From positions 1 through 28,049 of the IMG/VR virus record IMGVR_UViG_3300042328_000825: a stretch of DNA of 28,049 nucleotides, one strand, 5' to 3'. Both the position numbers and the translations under genes were made by a program. This stretch comes from a virus. Below, in pieces: positions 6,472-27,691 of this stretch (positions within the stretch are counted from its first letter, which is position 1; every line of letters begins with the position of its first letter). The notes beneath the pieces are model-generated. The model made no database searches, was not told where the DNA came from, and was given only the letters and a program-made list of their open reading frames with translations.

Positions 6472-8697
6472 ATGGGCGTAAAGAAACAAATGGATACATT
6501 TTTTGCCAGTTTGGGTGAGCAAACTGGATACCGTGGAAGATTGGTAAACACACCAATGGGACCGTTCCGCTGGAACGATGCCATCGAATTGTGGGAAAAC
6601 GTCAACAACGGTATGGTGATGAATAATATTTCTTTCATGGATGAATTTGCCATGATGGATTACGATACTTTAGGTGGTGGAGGTGGAGAAAATATAACAC
6701 CCCTTTATTTAAATCTTGATTTTACTCAAGGAACATTTGATTCTAGAATAACATTTTTTGAAAATGGTGTCGGTGGAATAGTAAACAGCCAAGGAATCCT
6801 TGATTATAATGAAAACAATTTATTGTCTTGGAGCGATTATGGTTTGACTGGCTGGGGATTGCCACCCGCCGGAGTATCTAGAACAGAAATTACAGATGTT
6901 GATGGAAATCCACAAAGGGGTGCTCGTATAACTTTTAGGCAGGCTGGAAATTCATCTTTAACTTTACAAACACTTTATAAAACAACATCAAAGTCTTTAA
7001 TATTTTGGATAAGAGGTAGTACATCAAATATAGGAAACTGTGGTGGTGCTGTAGAAAATGTAATTGAAGTTGGAATGCAAACTCCAAATACTGCATCTAA
7101 TGGTGGATTTGATGGACCTATTGGAACACCTTTTGGTACAGGTATTTGGGGATTTTCGAATAGAGGAACTTGTGATCTTATAGGTGGATTTACATCTGGT
7201 GTTATAGTAGATAAACTTGACCCATCATTTAGACCAAACCTTTGGAGAATTAGAAATATCTCAACTACTGAATGGACTAAAGTAAAAGTAACAAATTATG
7301 ATTCTGTCTCAGCAGTAAATATATATTTCGGTACTGCAACGCTGGGAGTTGGCGCCACATACACATTCGATATGTGTCAACTACAGTTACAGGCAGGCCA
7401 GTATGATAAGGGGTATAGAAGAACAACTGGTTCACCATATTATGGACCCAGAATTACATTTGCTTCCACTGGCGGAATAACATTGGGATGGTGGCTTGAA
7501 CCAGAATTAAAAAACCGTTTAACAAATTCCATGAATTTGTCTTCGTCTGGTTTGAGTGGAACAACAGGATGGAGTTTGAGTCGCTGTGGAATTACTTGGA
7601 CCACAGAAGTATTATCGCCCGCCGGATATTCAGATGGTTATAAACTTTTTGATGATACTACTTCAGGAACACCGACACATAGATTGATATCGGATGCTGT
7701 TACACAAACAATCAGCCCCCATTCACCCTCTGGCTATAGTTTCTACACAGCAAGCACATGGTTTAAAGCTGGTGGTTTAACAAATGCATATCTTGTCATT
7801 GCAGATTCTACAGAAACCAATTTAGCTAGAGCAATATTTGATTTACAAAATTTTGCTGTTGGTACCACAGCACAAAGCGGAAGTGGAATAACTTTAATAA
7901 ACACAGCCACGGGTCTTGAATTATATAACAATGGATGGGCAAGAGCATATATGAGTGCTGTTGTTGGTATAAGCTCCGCTTTACGAATGCATATTGGTAC
8001 AGCAATACGATCAAATGAAAATGCTTATTTGGGAACTGGAACTGGTTTCGTCTATATCTGGGGCCCACAATTTGAAAGCACTCTATTCCCGAGCAGCTAT
8101 ATGCCAACTGGAAATTGTGGTGCTAATTCTTTCATTTTACGTTCGTCAAATACTGCAATAATCGGAAATACCGGTAACTTGTTTTATGCAAATGATAATT
8201 CTGGAACAATAAACATAGAATATTATTACAGAAACAACCAATTTAGAAATTTCCCGTCCATAGCTAATTTTAGATTTGGTTCCGCTTCTTGCGATCCACG
8301 AACATATTCTGTTTCTTTATTTGCGGGCGAGGGAAACAATTACTACAGTGGAAATAATGTAAGAACTGCAGGTGGTACTGGTACAAACAGCTTCGTATAT
8401 TATAATGGAAGTAACGCCAATTCACCACCTCGTTACAATAACTTTATAAGACAAAGCGGTTCTTTCCTTGGATTGAGTGGATCATCCTCTTATAATATAA
8501 TAAGCGTAAATGGTAGAACTGGTTCTAACTCAATTGTTTTTGGCAACGGCGGTGGAACTCTTAATATTCCTACCTCTTTAGATTTTCAACAAAGATGTGA
8601 TTCTAACCCGGATGGTCACCCGGGAATAATAATTAAGAAGTTTTCATTCGAACCAGTATTTACGCCACAAAATATTTTAGTACAAAGAACAACTTAA
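6472..8697 (+). CDS. Large fibre-like virion protein with carbohydrate-binding-type modules
   Basis: A 741-residue protein. An N-terminal module (1-63) with GPFRWNDAIELWENVNNGMVMNNISFMDEFAMMDY is followed by a five-glycine linker (68-72), so it looks like a virion anchor followed by presented domains. Two beta-sandwich-type modules follow. The first ends near YTFDMCQLQLQAGQYDKGYRRT (about 297-318). The second ends near FVYIWGPQFESTLFPSSYMPT (about 526-546), the typical closing motif of CBM4/9-like domains in phage fibres. The C-terminal 190 residues are rich in Asn, Gly and Ser and could be a further lectin-like (LamG-type) domain. GAGGAAA supports the start. It is the only large adhesin-like gene on the plus strand and converges on the dUTPase gene, overlapping it by 4 bp. 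Confidence 0.8.
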   Translation: MGVKKQMDTFFASLGEQTGYRGRLVNTPMGPFRWNDAIELWENVNNGMVMNNISFMDEFAMMDYDTLGGGGGENITPLYLNLDFTQGTFDSRITFFENGVGGIVNSQGILDYNENNLLSWSDYGLTGWGLPPAGVSRTEITDVDGNPQRGARITFRQAGNSSLTLQTLYKTTSKSLIFWIRGSTSNIGNCGGAVENVIEVGMQTPNTASNGGFDGPIGTPFGTGIWGFSNRGTCDLIGGFTSGVIVDKLDPSFRPNLWRIRNISTTEWTKVKVTNYDSVSAVNIYFGTATLGVGATYTFDMCQLQLQAGQYDKGYRRTTGSPYYGPRITFASTGGITLGWWLEPELKNRLTNSMNLSSSGLSGTTGWSLSRCGITWTTEVLSPAGYSDGYKLFDDTTSGTPTHRLISDAVTQTISPHSPSGYSFYTASTWFKAGGLTNAYLVIADSTETNLARAIFDLQNFAVGTTAQSGSGITLINTATGLELYNNGWARAYMSAVVGISSALRMHIGTAIRSNENAYLGTGTGFVYIWGPQFESTLFPSSYMPTGNCGANSFILRSSNTAIIGNTGNLFYANDNSGTINIEYYYRNNQFRNFPSIANFRFGSASCDPRTYSVSLFAGEGNNYYSGNNVRTAGGTGTNSFVYYNGSNANSPPRYNNFIRQSGSFLGLSGSSSYNIISVNGRTGSNSIVFGNGGGTLNIPTSLDFQQRCDSNPDGHPGIIIKKFSFEPVFTPQNILVQRTT

Positions 8698-10749: not shown

Positions 10750-10757
10750 TATTTATC
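10750..10757 (-). promoter_or_regulatory. Probable late promoter box GATAAATA
   Basis: On the minus strand the box is followed by TAAAGGAG, so the ribosome site for the gene at 10734 lies just downstream. It overlaps the stop codon of the upstream fibre gene, as do most late boxes in this window. Seven of eight consensus bases match. Confidence 0.55.
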
Positions 10758-16252: not shown

Positions 16253-16260
16253 TATTTATA
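16253..16260 (-). promoter_or_regulatory. T4-type late promoter box TATAAATA
   Basis: An exact match on the minus strand, 13 bases before the ATG at 16239. The expected +1 near 16247 would leave a leader of about 8 bases that still contains GGAA. The box overlaps the stop codon of the upstream gene. Confidence 0.68.
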
Positions 16261-16760: not shown

Positions 16761-16768
16761 TATTTATA
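16761..16768 (-). promoter_or_regulatory. T4-type late promoter box TATAAATA, start-codon-proximal
   Basis: An exact match on the minus strand followed by TTAAGAC and then the ATG at 16753, so +1 would leave a leader of about two bases. The box contains the stop codon of the upstream gene. TATAAATATTAAGAC is identical to the sequence at 5143-5157 on the plus strand. Confidence 0.75.
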
Positions 16769-17999
16769 TGATTTCGAACCATGAAAGATCTGTATAACCT
16801 TGTGTGTTATTTGTCGTAGGAACCAGTACGAGAACAAATGTATCACTTACTCCCAGTTGTGTTCTTCCTATTTGAAAATTGAAATCATTTATGCTAGATA
16901 CGTCCAAGGTTCCGCTGCTACTTATATATCCACCTATAATATCAGTTCCACCAGTAACTCCGGTAGCCGTAACATTATATTGAACATTTCCATTGAAATG
17001 TGTTGCCCACGTGTTTCCAGTTAAAATTGGATTCAATAAAATTCTGTATTGCACTACTAATGGTTTGTTATTTGTTCCCGGCTCTATTGCCACACTAATA
17101 TTTGACGGCACAATAATACTATCCAATCTATCGGGGGCCATTCGTATTGCAATCAGTGGATATTGAGTTCCTGCTGTTGTTAAAGTATGGGGTGTAGTTC
17201 CACTGTGGGTTACGTTGTATCTTCTGCTGAATCCTTCATATCCACCTTCAGACAATATCGTTGAACAAATTTGTCTCATGGTACTGCTTGTTGCTTGGCT
17301 AGAAGTATTTTCAATTTCATATCTCAAAGGCAAGCATGCGGTTGTCATGTAAGTTGTTGAATTTTTATTTGTATTATAAAATGTGTGTGCCACAACAGGT
17401 TTACCATCTATAAAGAATCCGGTGCGGACATCACCCACACCCAACCATTCAACATCTAGCCAAAAAATATTTCCTTTTGTCACATCTATCGTAACACCAG
17501 AATCACCAGTTCCATCAAATTTGTCACCATTCCAATTTGATTGTGTTACCGTTTGTGTGGTTCCGAGTGAAGCAGATGTCAAGCAAACTGACAACGTCAA
17601 TCCATCTTGCTGTAGGTATACTCCATTATATGGCGTTCCAGCTGTAACACCGCCCGTTATTCCAAAATATCCAACCCGTTGACGCAATCCACTTTTTGGT
17701 TGGGCCATTGCAAAAGAGTCAACAATAGTCAAAGATTTTCCCGGCTGGTATGGAAACACCCTTTTAGTTTCAACATACATTTTAGAGCCATTTGTGGTCC
17801 CTGCGGTTAAAGATACAGTGCTTTCTACTGGATTAAAGGAATATGTGCCGCCACTTACTCCAACATAATTCCATTTATCACTGAGTGTATATCTTTGCTG
17901 ACTGTCAAATAAAGTAAAAGGATTGCTAACCTTTAGACGATTGAAAGCATCTACAACATTTCCTTTGAATCCCACAAGATCGTTAAATAGGTATGACAT
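16764..17999 (-). CDS. Virion structural protein, conserved phage beta-sandwich type
   Basis: A 411-residue protein. The N-terminal motif VVDAFNRLKVSNPFTLFDSQQRYTLSDKWNYV (about 16-47) resembles the start of structural proteins I associate with environmental T4-like phages. A lectin-like beta-sandwich follows (about 48-250, with GNIFWLDVEWLGVGDVRTGFFIDGKPVVAHTF), and then a second beta-rich domain (about 255-411). The C-terminal part has GTDIIGGYISSSGTLDVSS, echoed in the protein at 15613-16239. GGAG lies 9 bases upstream of the ATG, and the start overlaps the stop codon of the preceding collagen-like gene by one base, so it is co-translated with it. It is likely a tail-fibre or virion-surface protein; the family recognition is from memory and not certain. 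Confidence 0.78.
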   Translation of the reverse strand: MSYLFNDLVGFKGNVVDAFNRLKVSNPFTLFDSQQRYTLSDKWNYVGVSGGTYSFNPVESTVSLTAGTTNGSKMYVETKRVFPYQPGKSLTIVDSFAMAQPKSGLRQRVGYFGITGGVTAGTPYNGVYLQQDGLTLSVCLTSASLGTTQTVTQSNWNGDKFDGTGDSGVTIDVTKGNIFWLDVEWLGVGDVRTGFFIDGKPVVAHTFYNTNKNSTTYMTTACLPLRYEIENTSSQATSSTMRQICSTILSEGGYEGFSRRYNVTHSGTTPHTLTTAGTQYPLIAIRMAPDRLDSIIVPSNISVAIEPGTNNKPLVVQYRILLNPILTGNTWATHFNGNVQYNVTATGVTGGTDIIGGYISSSGTLDVSSINDFNFQIGRTQLGVSDTFVLVLVPTTNNTQGYTDLSWFEII

Positions 18000-20014
18000 T
18001 ATATTATTCTCCAGCCGGATCTGTAGATAAAATGCAGACCAGCGTTGTCTAAATTTATTATTGCTGAACTTTGATTGTCTATAGTATGTGCTGCAGTAGC
18101 ACCAACAATAGTTATTCGTCTTGATGTGCCACCACCTGCATTTCCAGATTCATCCTTTACCACAATTTCTCTTCCTGTTTCTGGGTTGGTTGGAAGAGTT
18201 ATTGTAACGGGACCTGCATAACTTACGCCAATATAATAATCCGAATACAAAGCTGCGTATGTTGCACCAGTCACACCAGTAGTTGCAAGAATAGAAATGC
18301 TTGACCCAGCACCGCCGCCGCTATTTGATGGCTGTATCCATTGAGTCGTCCCATTTAAATCTATTACATAAACATATTCTATACCGCTATCGGAATCCAT
18401 CCATCTGCTACCAACAGTAATTCCAGAATTTACTGGAGCATTTTCTTGATAATAAAAATCTATTACACCAGTTGAACCTTTGGCTCCAGTGGTTCCGGGT
18501 GCACCAGTTGGACCTGTGGTTCCTGTGGTTCCGGGTGCACCAGTTGGACCTGTGGGACCTGTAGGACCAGTTGGACCAGTTGGACCTGTGGTTCCTGTGG
18601 TTCCGGGTGCACCAGTTGGACCTGTGGTTCCTGTGGTTCCGGGTGCACCAGTTGGACCTGTGGTTCCTGTGGTTCCGGGTGCACCAGTTGGACCTGTGGG
18701 ACCTGTTAGTCCTATATCCGCTCCACAAGATCCTGCAATCGAAATATCAACATTTTTTCTTCTTCTGGTGATTGTAATATTATCACCAATAAAATTCATC
18801 GTATTGACAGAACGAATTATCTTATCACCATTCAAAGAAATATCAACTGCGCCACCACCTGCTGGCGTGGTCATCTGTCCGATGCGATCTATAGCCTTTT
18901 GAATATCGTCGTTTTTAAACTTGTCCAATATTCCTGAAACATGTTCAGAGTTAAACGACAATATTCCATCTTGTAAAATTAATGGAAACTCTGCTTCGAT
19001 TACAGGGCTTGTTCCGGCTGGACCTTGTTCGCCGGGATCTCCTTTTTCCCCTCTTGGTCCAATAGGACCTTGAGGGCCCACAGGTCCTCTATCACCTTTA
19101 TCTCCCTTTTCTCCACCCGGACCTTCGGGGCCAACAGGACCTTGAAGTCCAACCTCACCCGCAATTCCGTCTTTACCGGGTATGCCCTGCTGACCTTGCG
19201 GACCTTGAGGACCCATAGGACCAATAGGACCAACTTCTCCTTGATCGCCTTTATCACCCTTTTCTCCCTTGTCTCCTTTATCGCCCTTTGGTCCGATTAC
19301 TCCCGGATCACCTTTAGGCCCAACTTGACCTTTTTCTCCTTGTGGTCCTGCGGGGCCAACATCTCCCTGTTGACCCTGCTTTCCATCATTTCCCTGTGGA
19401 CCCATGGGTCCTTGCGGTCCTGCTGGGCCCATTGGACCAATCTGACCACGCTCACCTTGAAGTCCCTGCGATCCAGCTTGAGGAATTATTTCCTTTACAA
19501 TTGTTTTTTCTATTAATTGAACTACTGGTTTTTCTATTACTTTTGGTAATTGTTCTTTTGGTTTTTCTACTTGTACTTGTTCTTCAAGTAAATTTTTTAT
19601 TTGAGTAGAATTTCCTACAAATTTTACTATTTTATTTGAATTTTTTTCAATAAAATATCTCTCGGTTATTCCGTTTCCAAGATATATTTTTTCATCACAA
19701 GAAAGTGAAGTTGTTTCTTTTAGTAAAGTATTTTGCAGTAAAGACCCAATAGGTCTTTTTAATTTAAAAGTAGAACCTTGAACATTTTCAAACATAAGTA
19801 CTGGTTGAAAATATTCTTTTATCTTGGATGCATTTCCTTCTACCAGATAAGTTTCACCATACTCATCGCGCAAATATAAAGAAGTTATACCAGATCCAAT
19901 TTTAACATTTTTTGGATTTGGTGATGATTCAATTATGTGATAAACAGCACCCATCAGCAGATTTGGATGCTGCTTTACAAGTTTAAGAGTGTTTTTGTTC
20001 TTTCCAAAGAACAT
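17999..20014 (-). CDS. Collagen-like fibre protein with two chemically different Gly-X-Y blocks
   Basis: A 671-residue protein. Residues 1-150 contain two copies of a small repeat (about 37-70 and 109-142; pattern IG.GIT..Y......GN...IK) and then a Lys/Glu/Val linker (150-180). Collagen block 1 (181-334) is rich in charged GEKGDKGD and GPQGPMG triplets, the type that stabilises bacterial triple helices without hydroxyproline. A globular segment follows (335-434), then collagen block 2 (435-516), which is almost only [11 protein letters not shown]-terminal beta domain (about 518-671) ends the protein. It should form a long trimer. The ATG lies 6 bases after a GATAAATA late box with no Shine-Dalgarno site. 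Collagen-like domains are common in phage side fibres and mediate binding. Confidence 0.88.
18498..18710 (-). repeat. 36-bp tandem repeats coding for collagen-like block 2
   Basis: Three perfect 36-bp units lie at 18498-18533, 18606-18641 and 18642-18677. A 72-bp variant at 18534-18605 and a partial unit at 18678-18710 complete the array. Each unit codes for a 12-residue [12 protein letters not shown]-type period. The near-identity at DNA level points to recent expansion. Confidence 0.9.
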
Positions 20015-20020
20015 TTTAAG

Positions 20021-20028
20021 TATTTATC
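20021..20028 (-). promoter_or_regulatory. Probable late promoter box GATAAATA, start-codon-proximal
   Basis: Seven of eight consensus bases on the minus strand, followed by CTTAAA and the ATG at 20014. The box overlaps the stop codon of the upstream cysteine-rich gene. There is no ribosome site between the box and the start codon. Confidence 0.6.
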
Positions 20029-21796
20029 ATGTTCCTAAGTACCATTCACCATATAGAATTTGAGTTGCGTTTGCGCTTGTCAAACCTTCAGGAAATGTAG
20101 TAAAAGTGGATGTGCCCGTTCCTTCACCACATATACAAACTTCATTCTCAGGGGATAATGGAGGAGGCGTCGGGCAATCCGGTATCAAGTTAGCATTGCA
20201 ATCAATATATCCGGGAAAAGACGGAGAATTAAATAATGATTGTGCCCCCGGCGCCCCTCTGGTTGTATTATAATTAATCACATCATACCATCCTTGTGTT
20301 GGTGGACAAAATGGAGGTATACCAGCTGATGGATTCAAAAAACATTCTTCTTCTCCCGGTTTATCTCCTTCTTGTCCACACCAAGTAAACGTTAACTCTA
20401 TTACCCCCAACCATGAAGTAAATCCCGGTATATTATAACTTTGAATTAATGTAGATCCACAAATTCCGGGTATAGATGCAATGCTCCAAGTGGTACCTTC
20501 TGAAATTTTTAATTGAGAATCAAAGTCGTCTATTAAATAAAGACCGTTTCCAATTGTTCCCGAATTAAACGTTGTGCCATAAAAATGTCTTTTGCTGAAA
20601 AGATAGTTCAAATAGCCGTTTAAAGTTTCATCATAACTAAAAGTTCCAACAACAGAACTATAATTTGCTGCAAAATAAGGATTATCTGATAAATCATAAA
20701 AACCACACTGATAAGTTGATGGTGGAGAAATTGTTCCGGGAAAAACTAATGGAACAAAAAGACCAGTTATGCCACCAACACCCCTTTGTATCGGTGGCGA
20801 CACAAAAGTTGGTAAATCTGAAATTTCTGCGACTGTGGTTGAACCACTCAAAGCTAAATTTGGACCAAGAACTACAGAGCTAAAAAATGCACTAAATCCC
20901 TGTAAAGTATTTTTAACATCTGTCAAAGTTCCCGTACAACCTATTACATTTCCATCAGAACTGCTTAATGTCAATCCAGATGGAGATGAATAAAATTGCC
21001 AAATTCTTGCATTGTTTTGTGCATTGTCTGCAAGATATATCGATAAAGATTCGTATGTTTCATCTATTACACCGGGATATTTTAATGTCAACTCGGTATA
21101 TGAATCTGCTGGATTAAAGTTTAAAGTACTTATACTTCTTGAACTTGAAGAATCTGGTTCAACAGTAAAAAATGTTCTAGTGGGGCAGGGGCCACTGGGA
21201 ATGTCACAGGTAGTACAACCACAGCAACAATCATATTCTTCATCATATTCTGAAGTAGAAAAAATTGGACTATTTGCATTTCCTGTTGGTGTATTTGCGT
21301 TAAAAGAATACAATTTTCTTTTTATTCTTATTCCACCAGTTACAAGTATTGTATTTGTTCCTGTTCTTACATGTCCACCAGTTGTTTCTTCTATAGATTC
21401 ACTTATTCTATCCCATGTAACGCTAGCATTTGTTACACTGTTTACGTTCAAGGACAATATATTAGTAGAAACAGCATTGAATCCTTCAAATGGAAATGGT
21501 AATGGATTCCATAAAAGATAATCATCAGCGATATTTAAAGGACTTCTACACTCTAATTCGTACATGTAGAGTGGTGGAGTTCTTACACACCCCAAATTAT
21601 CTGAAGGAATTGTCTGGCTTACATATAATGGAGATGGTGGATCACTCGGAGAAGCAAATTGATTTCTATTTACATAACCCAACAAAGTGTTTGCTGTAAA
21701 TCCTTTTGTAAGTTTATCAAAAGAACTTTCAAGAGATGGTATCTGTGAATCACAAACACCACAAGCACATTGTGTTAAAAGTGCACCAATCAACAT
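20027..21796 (-). CDS. Cysteine-rich virion protein of unknown function
   Basis: A 589-residue protein in the fibre cluster, with no recognised family. It is unusual for its cysteines: CACGVC at 10-15, a dense cluster CCCGCTTC near residue 215, and scattered pairs near the C-terminus, including DCNANLIPDCPTP and EVCICG. The DCNxNxIPD string resembles short calcium-binding repeats of secreted bacterial proteins. The rest is beta-rich with low charge. I chose the ATG at 21796, two bases after the upstream stop, with GGAGG 12 bases before it; the frame is open further up, but that would overlap the neighbouring gene by 90 bp. MLIGALLTQCAC looks a little like a signal sequence but has no proper lipobox. 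Possible roles are a metal- or disulphide-stabilised receptor-binding protein. Confidence 0.75.
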   Translation of the reverse strand: MLIGALLTQCACGVCDSQIPSLESSFDKLTKGFTANTLLGYVNRNQFASPSDPPSPLYVSQTIPSDNLGCVRTPPLYMYELECRSPLNIADDYLLWNPLPFPFEGFNAVSTNILSLNVNSVTNASVTWDRISESIEETTGGHVRTGTNTILVTGGIRIKRKLYSFNANTPTGNANSPIFSTSEYDEEYDCCCGCTTCDIPSGPCPTRTFFTVEPDSSSSRSISTLNFNPADSYTELTLKYPGVIDETYESLSIYLADNAQNNARIWQFYSSPSGLTLSSSDGNVIGCTGTLTDVKNTLQGFSAFFSSVVLGPNLALSGSTTVAEISDLPTFVSPPIQRGVGGITGLFVPLVFPGTISPPSTYQCGFYDLSDNPYFAANYSSVVGTFSYDETLNGYLNYLFSKRHFYGTTFNSGTIGNGLYLIDDFDSQLKISEGTTWSIASIPGICGSTLIQSYNIPGFTSWLGVIELTFTWCGQEGDKPGEEECFLNPSAGIPPFCPPTQGWYDVINYNTTRGAPGAQSLFNSPSFPGYIDCNANLIPDCPTPPPLSPENEVCICGEGTGTSTFTTFPEGLTSANATQILYGEWYLGT

Positions 21797-21798
21797 AA

Positions 21799-23517
<1,719 letters not shown>

Positions 23518-23518
23518 T

Positions 23519-23526
23519 TATTTATA
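23519..23526 (-). promoter_or_regulatory. T4-type late promoter box TATAAATA, start-codon-proximal
   Basis: An exact match on the minus strand, followed by ATCAAAG and the ATG at 23511. The TAA inside the box is the stop codon of the upstream tailspike gene. The expected +1 leaves a leader of about two bases. Confidence 0.73.
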
Positions 23527-26002
23527 TGGCTATTACAGCCATTCCAGAACCGGAACCATTCGCAAAAGTTAATCCTTCAGAACTCAAAGAAACATTTCGT
23601 CCAAACCAACTTGTATAACCAGCTCCGGTATTATTGAATATGGATAGTACATTTGTACTATGTGTTGTTAATATACTATTAACGGTTGCCGTTTTTCCGG
23701 AAAGAGATCCTGTAATAATTTCATTTGCAGTAAATCCTATAGAACCTATTCCAATTTGAGTAGTTCCTCTAAATCCAGTTATAGAAGCAATAGTTCCACT
23801 GCTTGATCCTGTAATGTTTTCATTTAACAAGAAACCAGAATTTGTAGACACACTCAAACATTTAGTATCGGTACCAACAACATTTCCATAAGTTACGGCT
23901 TTTCTTGCATGTGTTACCAAAATATCAGCTCTTGTTAATGTACTTAAATTTGCTGTCTGTAAACCATTTAAAACTGTATTATCTGAAACTTGGGCATTTT
24001 CTACATAACCATTCCAACCAAGTAAAGTTCCACCCTGCCCAGATAAGGATATTGCAGATTCGATTCCACCTGCAGGTTGATTTGTTCCTGATGTACGTGT
24101 ACCATCTACTATATTGTTTTTGCAAACAATAGATTTTTTAACTGGTCGGCAATATAATGCAGTACCATCATAAGAATTTAAAATTTTATTTCCTTCAAAC
24201 ATAACATAATTGGCCATTATCATGCCCGGAGCATGTATAAGCATGCCACCAGCATTGTTGCAAACATTGTTTGAAAAATTTATTGTATTAAACATTGCTT
24301 GACACAATCCGGCAGCAGCAGCAGATGCTCCAGCGCCAATGTGTGCTGCACCCTGTGGATAATTTTTTCCAGAAGAAATAATATTACCAACAATATTTAC
24401 ATCTACGTCTTCTCCAGCATAACCATTATTTACAAGCGATAGCCACATTCTTCTGTCGGTATCACCAGCAGTTCTTGTTTGTATTTCATTTCCATATTCC
24501 ATCACATTATTAGAAATATTAATTATTCCACCCTGTGCTGTTGTAAAACCGAGAGAATCAAATTGACCACCTATATTAACGAACACCCCGATAGTATTTT
24601 GATTTGGAACATAAGATGTTCTCATGTAATTATTTTTAATATCAAAATTAGTTCGAACCATATAACCAATATATACTAGACCAGTATTTTCTCCACGGAT
24701 TTGGCAACCGTCAATTGTAATCTTGTCTCCAGCTACAACAAATCCACCATCAACAAAACAATTTACAAATTTAATATATTCAGATCCTACGTGCGTGTCT
24801 ACTGCACCAACAATGTTATTTGGATTTTGTGAATCACTGATTCTTAAAGCAGACATTCCATTAAATGTTATATTTCTATTTACTATTCCCAGAGATGGAA
24901 TGTATCTTCCACTCCCTGTTAATCCGGTATTAACAGTTCCCATACTGGTAGCATGTCTTGCAGCAGAATAATAACCGCCATTTATAAACATATTTTGGCA
25001 ATTATAGAGTACTAAGCCATAATCCAGTCCATATTGGGCTCCTCCCACGTCTTCACCATAACAATTGTTTACAAATACATTATCACACTGACCAAGGGTT
25101 AAAGCTTCTGCTGAACAGTTTGTGACTTTTACGTTTTCTATCGCAGTATCTTTTAAATAACGCAACTCTATTCCAATATCATAACTACCAGCTACACCAT
25201 TACCTTTTACACCTATATTTTTTATACTTCCGTTGGAATAATTCCAAACTTTATATAAACACAATCCGGACAAAGAATAATTATCATAAAATGTTCCTTG
25301 AATAACCGCACCCGTTGTACCTTGAATCAATCCAACTCTTCTTATTTCACCTTTATTTGGTGAATTTTGACCAAGATATCTGGTCCAAAATGTATTTCCT
25401 GTTATCCAAATCATATCTCCTGCAGATAAACCATGTGCTGTAGAAAAGTTTAATGTTCTATCTCCTTCAGATAAACCTGCAACTAAATTTGGAAGTTGTG
25501 TAAAAGTTATTCCAGCAACAGAATTTTTTAATACAGGTACTTGAAACCCCCAGCTTATACCAGAACTTCCATCGATTACCGATATATCTGGACCTTCACC
25601 AAATAAATTTACATCTTTCGGTATTGTTAAAGTATTATTTACTTTATAAGTTCCTGCAGGAAAATAAATTGTTTTATTACCAGAATTTAAAGCATTTTGA
25701 ATTGCTGTGGTATCATTGCTTATGCCATTTCCCATGGCTCCATATAATTTTACTGAAATGCCATACCCCGTTGGTCCGGGTGCACCAGTGGGTCCAGTTG
25801 GACCTATTGAACCAGTTGGACCTGTGGGTCCAGTTGGACCTATTGAACCAGTTGGACCTATTGAACCAGTTGGACCTGTGGGTCCAGTTGGACCTATTGA
25901 ACCAGTTGGACCTGTGGGTCCAGTTGGTCCCTGAATACCCTGCGGCCCTTGTACACCATATGGTGTAGTATATACAGTTAAACTAGGAATCCTAATGGTC
26001 AT
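23522..26002 (-). CDS. Tailspike-like protein: collagen-like stalk plus right-handed beta-helix
   Basis: An 826-residue protein. After a short anchor ([16 protein letters not shown]) comes a collagen-like stalk (17-79, [10 protein letters not shown] repeats). From residue 82, [40 protein letters not shown] is the classic entry of pectate-lyase-3-type beta-helices in phage tailspikes. The next 550 residues show the expected repeating short strands with asparagines ([62 protein letters not shown]). A pair of small repeats near the C-terminus (about 725-790; F..NE.ITGS.SG..A) precedes the final domain. Such proteins often cut or bind host polysaccharide; catalytic residues cannot be assigned by eye. 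The start follows the previous stop by one base, with GGAAAAC upstream. Confidence 0.9.
25794..25919 (-). repeat. 36/54-bp tandem repeats coding for the tailspike collagen stalk
   Basis: Units begin at 25794 (36 bp), 25830 (54 bp, with one extra 18-bp sub-unit) and 25884 (36 bp). The 18-bp sub-units code for GPTGSI or GPTGPT. The length variant inside the array shows the kind of gain or loss expected from slippage or unequal recombination. Confidence 0.86.
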
Positions 26003-26465: not shown

Positions 26466-27683
26466 TTAAAGAGTTACTGCAACTTTTTTGGGATCGATGT
26501 CTAAAGTCGTTTTATTTACGTTCTTTGAGACCTTTTCAGCCCAATCTTTTTGTTGTTCGGCAACCTGTTCTTGGAATTTTTGGAAAGCCTGCATGTAAAT
26601 TTTGTAGTTATTTTCTACTCTGGGTCTGTGTTCGTTGGGCAAGTGTGGCTCACTCAACAATTTTTGACATGCTGACATACCAATTTGTGGTCTTCCGGCA
26701 TAGAATGCCGTAGTTCCGATTTCATCAAAAATGCCCCAAAGATAATTTGCGTTATCAACGAACAAAATATCATTTTGTGGAAGAGGAGTACTCAAACCCA
26801 AAGAGGCAACCAAGAATGCATTTCGTGGTCTATCATATTTTCTATAGATGCAAGACAGATGATAAAGAGGCTCAACTCTGTTGGGGGCACTTTCAAATGC
26901 CATCATAAATGCATCTGCAATTTGTTCGACTGGCTTGCCCAAAAATTCTCTGCACATACCAACGCGCATCCATGAGAAGAACACCTCTTCATGCCAGCCG
27001 CCTTGCTTAATACGCTTTAGGTATTCTTCTTCAGCGATTGCAAACATTCTTGCATCAAATGCCGATTGCGCTGCATAAAATTGCTTTCTTGGTTGATTCG
27101 GATCCTTATCCAAATAGCCCTTAAGGATGTAATAATCTTTGGTATACTTTTCGATGTCGTTTGATACAGACCGAGAACGACATCCTTCTGTCCTCACTTC
27201 CCAAGCATAATCGCCTTCAAGCTTCTGGACAATCATTGGCTGTTCGCAAATAGCATATTCGTGAAGTGGCTCTTCATACCACCACTTCTTCTTTGCTAGA
27301 TTGAACAATTGGGCTCTCAGCCACTTAAACTCTCCACGCTTGATTTGGACAACATAGCCATCCAAATTATCATCAAACTTGTCAACTGGTAGAGTTCCAA
27401 CGATAAAGTCATCGGCATCGATCATCATAGCCCACTTAGTTTTGCCTAGGCAAAGCTCAAGTGCCCTTGATCTGTTTGTTCCGAAGTCAGACCATTCATG
27501 GTCATGAATCTCACCCGGAATACCCTTTTCATCAAAGAACTTTTTGATGATCTCCTTTGTATTGTCGGTGGATCCTGTATCACAGATTACATAGTAATCG
27601 ATGAATGGTGCGCATGAAGCCAAGCATCTTTCAATGTTTGGAGCCTCGTTCTTTACGATCATACTCAAAGTCAATTTGTGCAT
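26466..27683 (-). CDS. Family 2 glycosyltransferase with helical C-terminal domain
   Basis: A 405-residue protein. The N-terminal GT-A fold starts LTLSMIVKNEAPNIERCLAS. DTGSTDNT at 35-42 is the nucleotide-sugar-binding motif of this family, and DADD at 89-92 is the DxD metal site. Residues about 195-390 are helical and TPR-like (e.g. ARMFAIAEEEYLKRIKQGG, VEPLYHLSCIYRKYDRPRNAFLVASLGL). Such phage GT2-TPR proteins transfer sugars to an unknown acceptor, which may be DNA, a host glycan or a virion protein. The ATG at 27683 is chosen because AAGG lies 6 bases upstream; an ATG at 27689 directly touches that site. It lies 8 bp after the regA stop, so it is in the same early transcript, and a terminator follows. 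Confidence 0.88.
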   Translation of the reverse strand: MHKLTLSMIVKNEAPNIERCLASCAPFIDYYVICDTGSTDNTKEIIKKFFDEKGIPGEIHDHEWSDFGTNRSRALELCLGKTKWAMMIDADDFIVGTLPVDKFDDNLDGYVVQIKRGEFKWLRAQLFNLAKKKWWYEEPLHEYAICEQPMIVQKLEGDYAWEVRTEGCRSRSVSNDIEKYTKDYYILKGYLDKDPNQPRKQFYAAQSAFDARMFAIAEEEYLKRIKQGGWHEEVFFSWMRVGMCREFLGKPVEQIADAFMMAFESAPNRVEPLYHLSCIYRKYDRPRNAFLVASLGLSTPLPQNDILFVDNANYLWGIFDEIGTTAFYAGRPQIGMSACQKLLSEPHLPNEHRPRVENNYKIYMQAFQKFQEQVAEQQKDWAEKVSKNVNKTTLDIDPKKVAVTL

Positions 27684-27691
27684 AGTCATCC

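Follow-up and report, generated by a model that had tools for sequence, protein, structure and literature searches.

The cysteine-rich protein encoded on the minus strand of a 28,049-base virus record (the window) is probably a late fibre-associated adhesin of a T4-like phage, i.e., a receptor-binding or distal-fibre component. Its gene retains the same position between two collagen-like genes in its relatives, diverges sharply within its own limits, is absent from most related records, and retains most of its cysteines in a distant relative. Receptor-binding proteins determine which bacteria are infected and are mostly unrecognized in uncultured T4-like phages; because the protein has no recognizable family and its locus identifies it as an exchanged part, it may well represent a new adhesin family, and we regard it as an orphan family that is new, in a type of locus already known. 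In the proposed mechanism, the gene and the upstream fibre gene (colA) would be expressed from one late transcript, the product would be assembled with the fibres and would touch the cell surface, and the slot of the gene within the host-recognition region would be swapped or fast-diversifying. The cysteines would probably pin short strand-rich segments, via metal ions or via disulphides formed after release; if a fibre protein so rich in cysteine is assembled in the reducing cytoplasm, the question arises of which of the two, metal ions or late-forming disulphides, is used.

Table 1. Features of the window considered in the text, with positions in the window.
Feature	Position	Strand	Evidence or remark
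Cysteine-rich protein gene, 589 aa	20027..21796	minus	open frame; without known family
Shine-Dalgarno-like GGAGG before ATG at 21796	21809..21813	minus	sequence; kept in both relatives
N-terminal cysteine cluster CACGVC, residues 10-15	21752..21769	minus	C10, C12, C15 conserved
Central cysteine cluster CCCGCTTC, residues 190-197	21206..21229	minus	
DCNANLIPDC element, residues 532-541	20174..20203	minus	
C-terminal CICG, residues 554-557	20126..20137	minus	both cysteines conserved
Collagen-like fibre protein colA, directly upstream	21799..23511	minus	Pfam PF01391, PHROGs tail fibre
Collagen-like fibre protein colB, directly downstream	17999..20014	minus	Pfam PF01391, PHROGs tail fibre
phrog_1645 virion structural protein, conserved locus anchor	16764..17999	minus	PHROGs 5e-96; tblastn to cyanophages
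Glycosyltransferase, 407 aa, edge of variable region	26466-27689		phrog_13126
TATAAATA, T4-type late-promoter-like, before colA	23519..23526	minus	
GATAAATAC, late-promoter-like, before colB	20020..20028	minus	overlaps end of cysteine-rich gene
Further (T/G)ATAAATA late-promoter-like elements	16761-16768, 16253-16260, 10750-10757	minus	

The Gene and Its Cysteines

The open reading frame of 589 codons begins two bases after the stop of colA, with GGAGG 12 nt upstream of its ATG, and the GGAGGTTGCA context before the start is common to the window and both relatives. A longer in-frame start at 21889 would overlap colA, and the GGAGG favours 21796; a frameshift fusion with colA is likewise unneeded because the gene carries a ribosome-binding site and a start of its own. 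The original prediction, which had called the cysteine content unusual for a virion protein and had named CACGVC, a DCNxNxIPD element, and late CxC pairs, is borne out in both respects: CACGVC, CCCGCTTC, DCNANLIPDC, and CICG are all found in the protein, and 21 of its 589 residues are cysteine (3.57%), compared with 75 of 8566 residues (0.88%) in the 25 other genes of the window, a background against which at least 21 cysteines are far above chance (binomial P = 1.1e-7). The protein family also has the highest cysteine fraction among the 191 open reading frames of at least 400 aa from the window and the fetched loci, a list that includes the same contig more than once. That the product is a virion protein is suggested by its gene context.

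The cysteines are preferentially retained in the distant relative, in which 15 of the 21 are conserved; for all aligned residues together, the count is 242 of 543 (hypergeometric P = 0.004). In the CCCGCTTC cluster, CCC is conserved and C194 and C197 are not, and the C-terminal region comprises a group of four conserved cysteines (C533, C541, C554, and C556). A role of metal or disulphides would fit this conservation, although any role of the cysteines, or of the DCN element (residues 532-541), is speculative. An internal duplication was also considered; profile slices align over approximately 20 residues, at the two cysteine clusters only and with low probability, and no internal repeat is therefore claimed.

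Relatives, Families, and Structure

Scans of IMG/VR identified two contigs with relatives of the protein: IMGVR_UViG_3300044612_001553, with 92% identity, and IMGVR_UViG_3300027769_000122, with 40% by tblastn and about 44-45% in the alignment. Both relatives are located between the same collagen-like genes as in the window, and thus the gene and colA are found together in three of three cases. A profile search of 40 phrog_1645-bearing records, many of which are fragments, found the gene in these two contigs only. Two further contigs that match the DNA pattern (L049 and L050) are unrelated. Between the distant alleles, residues 1-50 and 301-400 are most alike (50-56%) and residues 401-500 least alike (27-28%); since only three sequences are known, this variability rests on one divergent pair.

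The original prediction would have given way to a known virion family with conserved cysteines, and the homology searches yielded none: the protein and its fragments have no significant match in Pfam, NCBIfam, or PHROGs, and the protein has no match among PDB sequences or in 50,697 phage records. A search of genome contigs with the protein alignment recovered no relative, and a literature search, largely without subscription journals, found no report of such a protein. Hints of NHL repeats (E 0.0044 to 0.071) were rejected because they are below the Pfam cut-off, comprise partial repeats only, and are missing from the fragment of the divergent relative L003. The weak PHROGs matches of the L003 fragment are to phrog_4448 (E 0.062) and phrog_27617 (E 0.13), both of unknown function. 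Residues ~233-309 of the window protein weakly resemble phrog_12846, a tail fiber protein family containing an Ig domain, although the match is not significant (E 0.19 and 0.082) and is lacking in L003. An AlphaFold model of the full-length protein, based on three sequences, is too poor for fold assignment (pLDDT 25.7), and that of the middle domain reaches pLDDT 54.1, with a strand-rich core of 76-82 in blocks of ten; a Foldseek search with the middle-domain model yielded nothing at E 0.001 or better. The phrog_12846 match falls on this strand-rich core, which is only suggestive.

A Swapped Slot in the Host-Recognition Region

The window encodes a T4-type DNA polymerase (phrog_262) and a UvsX-like recombinase (phrog_97), and the best matches listed for both are cyanophages, with about 41% and 57.5% identity, respectively; by its genes, the window is therefore a fragment of a T4-like phage without a close isolate. 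The photosystem family PF00124, as a hint to the host, was found in 0 of 23 related records, mostly fragments. In cyanophage S-RIM50, the phrog_1645 gene is located among the neck, gp16, and terminase genes. Further upstream of colA and the cysteine-rich gene, the window encodes the glycosyltransferase and a pectate-lyase-like tail spike.

Comparison with L044, the contig of the distant relative, confines the divergence to the cysteine-rich gene. DNA identity in the flanking genes is mostly 77-99%, compared with 53% for the cysteine-rich gene in a codon alignment; per 100-base block, its identity is 44-68%, with 73% in the last block, which spans the gene end, and the shift in identity falls about 100 nt or less from either end of the gene. 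For colA, identity is 77% across the full gene, with 85-95% in the final ~400 nt, and stretches over colB and phrog_1645 are 90-94% identical. Relative to L043, which is the closer relative, the identity of the gene is 92.5%, similar to that of its neighbours, and part of colA is 55-62% identical. The dN/dS ratio (Nei-Gojobori) of the gene relative to the closer relative (L001) is 0.27, compared with lower values in three neighbours, namely phrog_1645 (0.08), the glycosyltransferase (0.04), and the N-terminal part of colB (0.13); the ratio relative to L003 is 0.53, at a nearly saturated dS of 1.19.

In 19 of 40 loci, a relative of the glycosyltransferase (44-96% identity) precedes phrog_1645, with both genes visible within 10 kb, and the interval between the two ranges from 0.55 to 9.6 kb. 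Only one of these 19 loci carries the cysteine-rich gene; in L003, the second carrier, the glycosyltransferase is located at a greater distance upstream, and other relatives have different genes in the slot, or none. The gene thus behaves like an adhesin cassette in a host-recognition cluster, although its fast divergence could alternatively reflect recombination of a gene with another role. Related T4-like phages (pelagimyophages and cyanomyophages) are described as having such a hypervariable cluster, located between VrlC and neck gp14 and including tail fibres and glycosyltransferases, with collagen-repeat proteins in the structural region (PMC7029224). The window likewise has T4-like genes together with an island that is not syntenic among relatives and that encodes collagen-like tail fibres and a glycosyltransferase; a difference is that no cysteine-rich protein is named in the available text of PMC7029224.

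Late-Promoter-Like Elements

The ATAAATA motif is located 13-22 nt upstream of five minus-strand genes, including colA and colB, and 35 nt upstream of one more; none is found directly before the cysteine-rich gene. Among the nine minus-strand sites, six are at most 40 nt upstream of a gene start (simple binomial P = 7e-8). Counted over the whole window, TATAAATA and ATAAATAC are no more frequent than in shuffles, and it is their placement, not their number, that stands out. We take TATAAATA to be a T4 late promoter; on this reading, the motif implies that the cysteine-rich gene may be transcribed late, together with colA. In the stretch examined of L043, there is no ATAAATA site near the start of colA, which closely follows the preceding gene there. 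Scans for sigma-70 promoters and terminators remained at chance level.

The DCN Element and the Planctomycete Repeat

The element reads DCNGNLIPDC in L001 and DCDGNFIRPEC in L003. A scan of genomes for DCNxNxIPD found at least 116 stretches, and among the 80 titles listed, 69 belong to Planctomycetota (by reading titles), eight are without phylum, and three are others (Proteobacteria, Myxococcales, and Clostridia). The consensus of 241 copies among the matches listed is DCNxNGIPDEC[DE], with a cysteine at +2 after the last aspartate (209 copies) and an acidic residue at +3 (237 copies). The phage element shares the first half of this repeat (DC[ND]xNxI), whereas its second half differs: the cysteine is one residue early, at +1, where none of the 241 listed copies has it, or the second half is altered, and the +1 cysteine is followed by Pro-Thr or Pro-Glu and no acidic residue. 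Furthermore, the planctomycete repeat, thrombospondin type 3-like by eye, occurs in several tandem copies with a median of nine D.[ND].[ND] sites per planctomycete frame among the matches listed, whereas each of the three phage proteins has one.

A score matrix built from the planctomycete repeats was compared with 2000 residue shuffles per protein, and the score of the element was reached by 0 of 2000 shuffles for the window, 0 of 2000 for L001, and 8 of 2000 for L003; the first two scores are not independent, L001 being a near-copy of the window protein, and the figures are generous because the element was chosen post hoc. A search of 392 Planctomycetota genomes yielded no homologue of the protein, and a smaller search of eight planctomycete genomes gave 0 matches. 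A lone hit in one of the 392 (E 0.0028, two stops in frame), which was inspected for cysteine-rich strings only, is attributed to chance because a search of this size should yield approximately one hit of this kind. Hence, of the original suggestion of a planctomycete-like calcium-binding repeat, the resemblance stands as real and membership in the repeat does not: the single copy, the cysteine register, the lack of the acidic residue, and the genome search all speak against it. The DCNxNGIPDEC[DE] repeat itself is very common (loci L051-L166) and falls under Pfam cut-offs even in many-copy arrays (TSP_3 E 0.51; two stretches tried), and this abundant family therefore seems to be without a curated model.

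Proposed Function and Alternatives

The adhesin reading is based on the location of the gene between two collagen-like tail-fibre genes and near the phrog_1645 virion structural protein, from which we infer virion incorporation and adhesion; no known-adhesin domain was found in the protein. The closest analogy is with gp38 of T2 and S16, which is encoded by its own gene immediately behind a fibre gene, within a variable region that governs host range, and is about half the size of the cysteine-rich protein or less. The cysteine-rich gene is likewise directly downstream of a fibre gene, colA, which may or may not encode the distal fibre, and its product differs in being about twice the size or more, rich in cysteine, and without a family match. 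In T4-superfamily phages, gp38 is described as the adhesin that sets receptor choice (PMC12529663; PMC7289586) and as carrying five glycine-rich motifs (PMC12529663), whereas the cysteine-rich protein contains no run of three glycines and no match to the gp38 family. The best-supported analogy is that the protein would work like the gp38 adhesins of T2 and S16 and would not be a member of the gp38 family.

The main rival to the adhesin reading is an assembly chaperone or accessory for colA, comparable with T4 gp38 or Mu Tfa, which need not stay in the virion; we consider it unlikely. The two-base gap behind a fibre gene and the constant company of colA would suit it, since the T4 and Mu chaperones are placed directly downstream of fibre genes in PMC7289586; however, the chaperones named in the available text of that article are of 20-22 kDa, compared with 589 aa here, and the colA C-terminus, the presumed client end, is kept in L044 while the cysteine-rich gene has diverged, the reverse of the expectation for a dedicated chaperone. 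It is slightly more doubtful that the product is a passive structural or decorating protein (part of the whisker, neck, or baseplate) that uses its cysteines to bind metal for stability and has no role in receptor choice. The structural phrog_1645 neighbour, with the company this family keeps in S-RIM50, and the conserved cysteines are consistent with such a part, whereas the divergence far above that of the neighbours is unlike core structural parts, and the gene was not found in 38 of the 40 phrog_1645 records, fragments included.

The smallest chance is given to mimicry, or partial capture, of a secreted or surface protein of planctomycetes, with DCNxNxIPD then acting as a calcium-binding repeat. 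The strongly planctomycetal distribution of the motif and a score above shuffles in both the window and the divergent relative argue for it; the single out-of-register copy, the lack of a following acidic residue, the altered divergent allele, and the 392 genomes without a homologue argue against it. Within the adhesin reading, a more elaborate version appears very improbable, namely a new, modular adhesin type, stabilized by metal or disulphides, in which cysteine clusters pin variable surfaces and a lone calcium loop, originating from the planctomycete DCNxNGIPDEC repeat, contacts a repeat-displaying host.

Other Features of the Locus

The colA C-terminus has no match in the phage records. 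Long plus-strand open frames at 22556-23137 and 19025-19516 are antisense to the collagen repeats and are best taken as artefacts of repeat composition. In L003 (~8135-8364, equivalent to ~19,800-20,014 of the window), the start of colB corresponds to residue 73 of the window protein, with a one-base alignment gap nearby; this represents either an assembly error or a frameshift. The tail spike of the window (23522-26002) has a collagen-like N-terminus and is missing at this place in L043, and in L044 two long genes (660 and 825 aa) are located upstream of colA.
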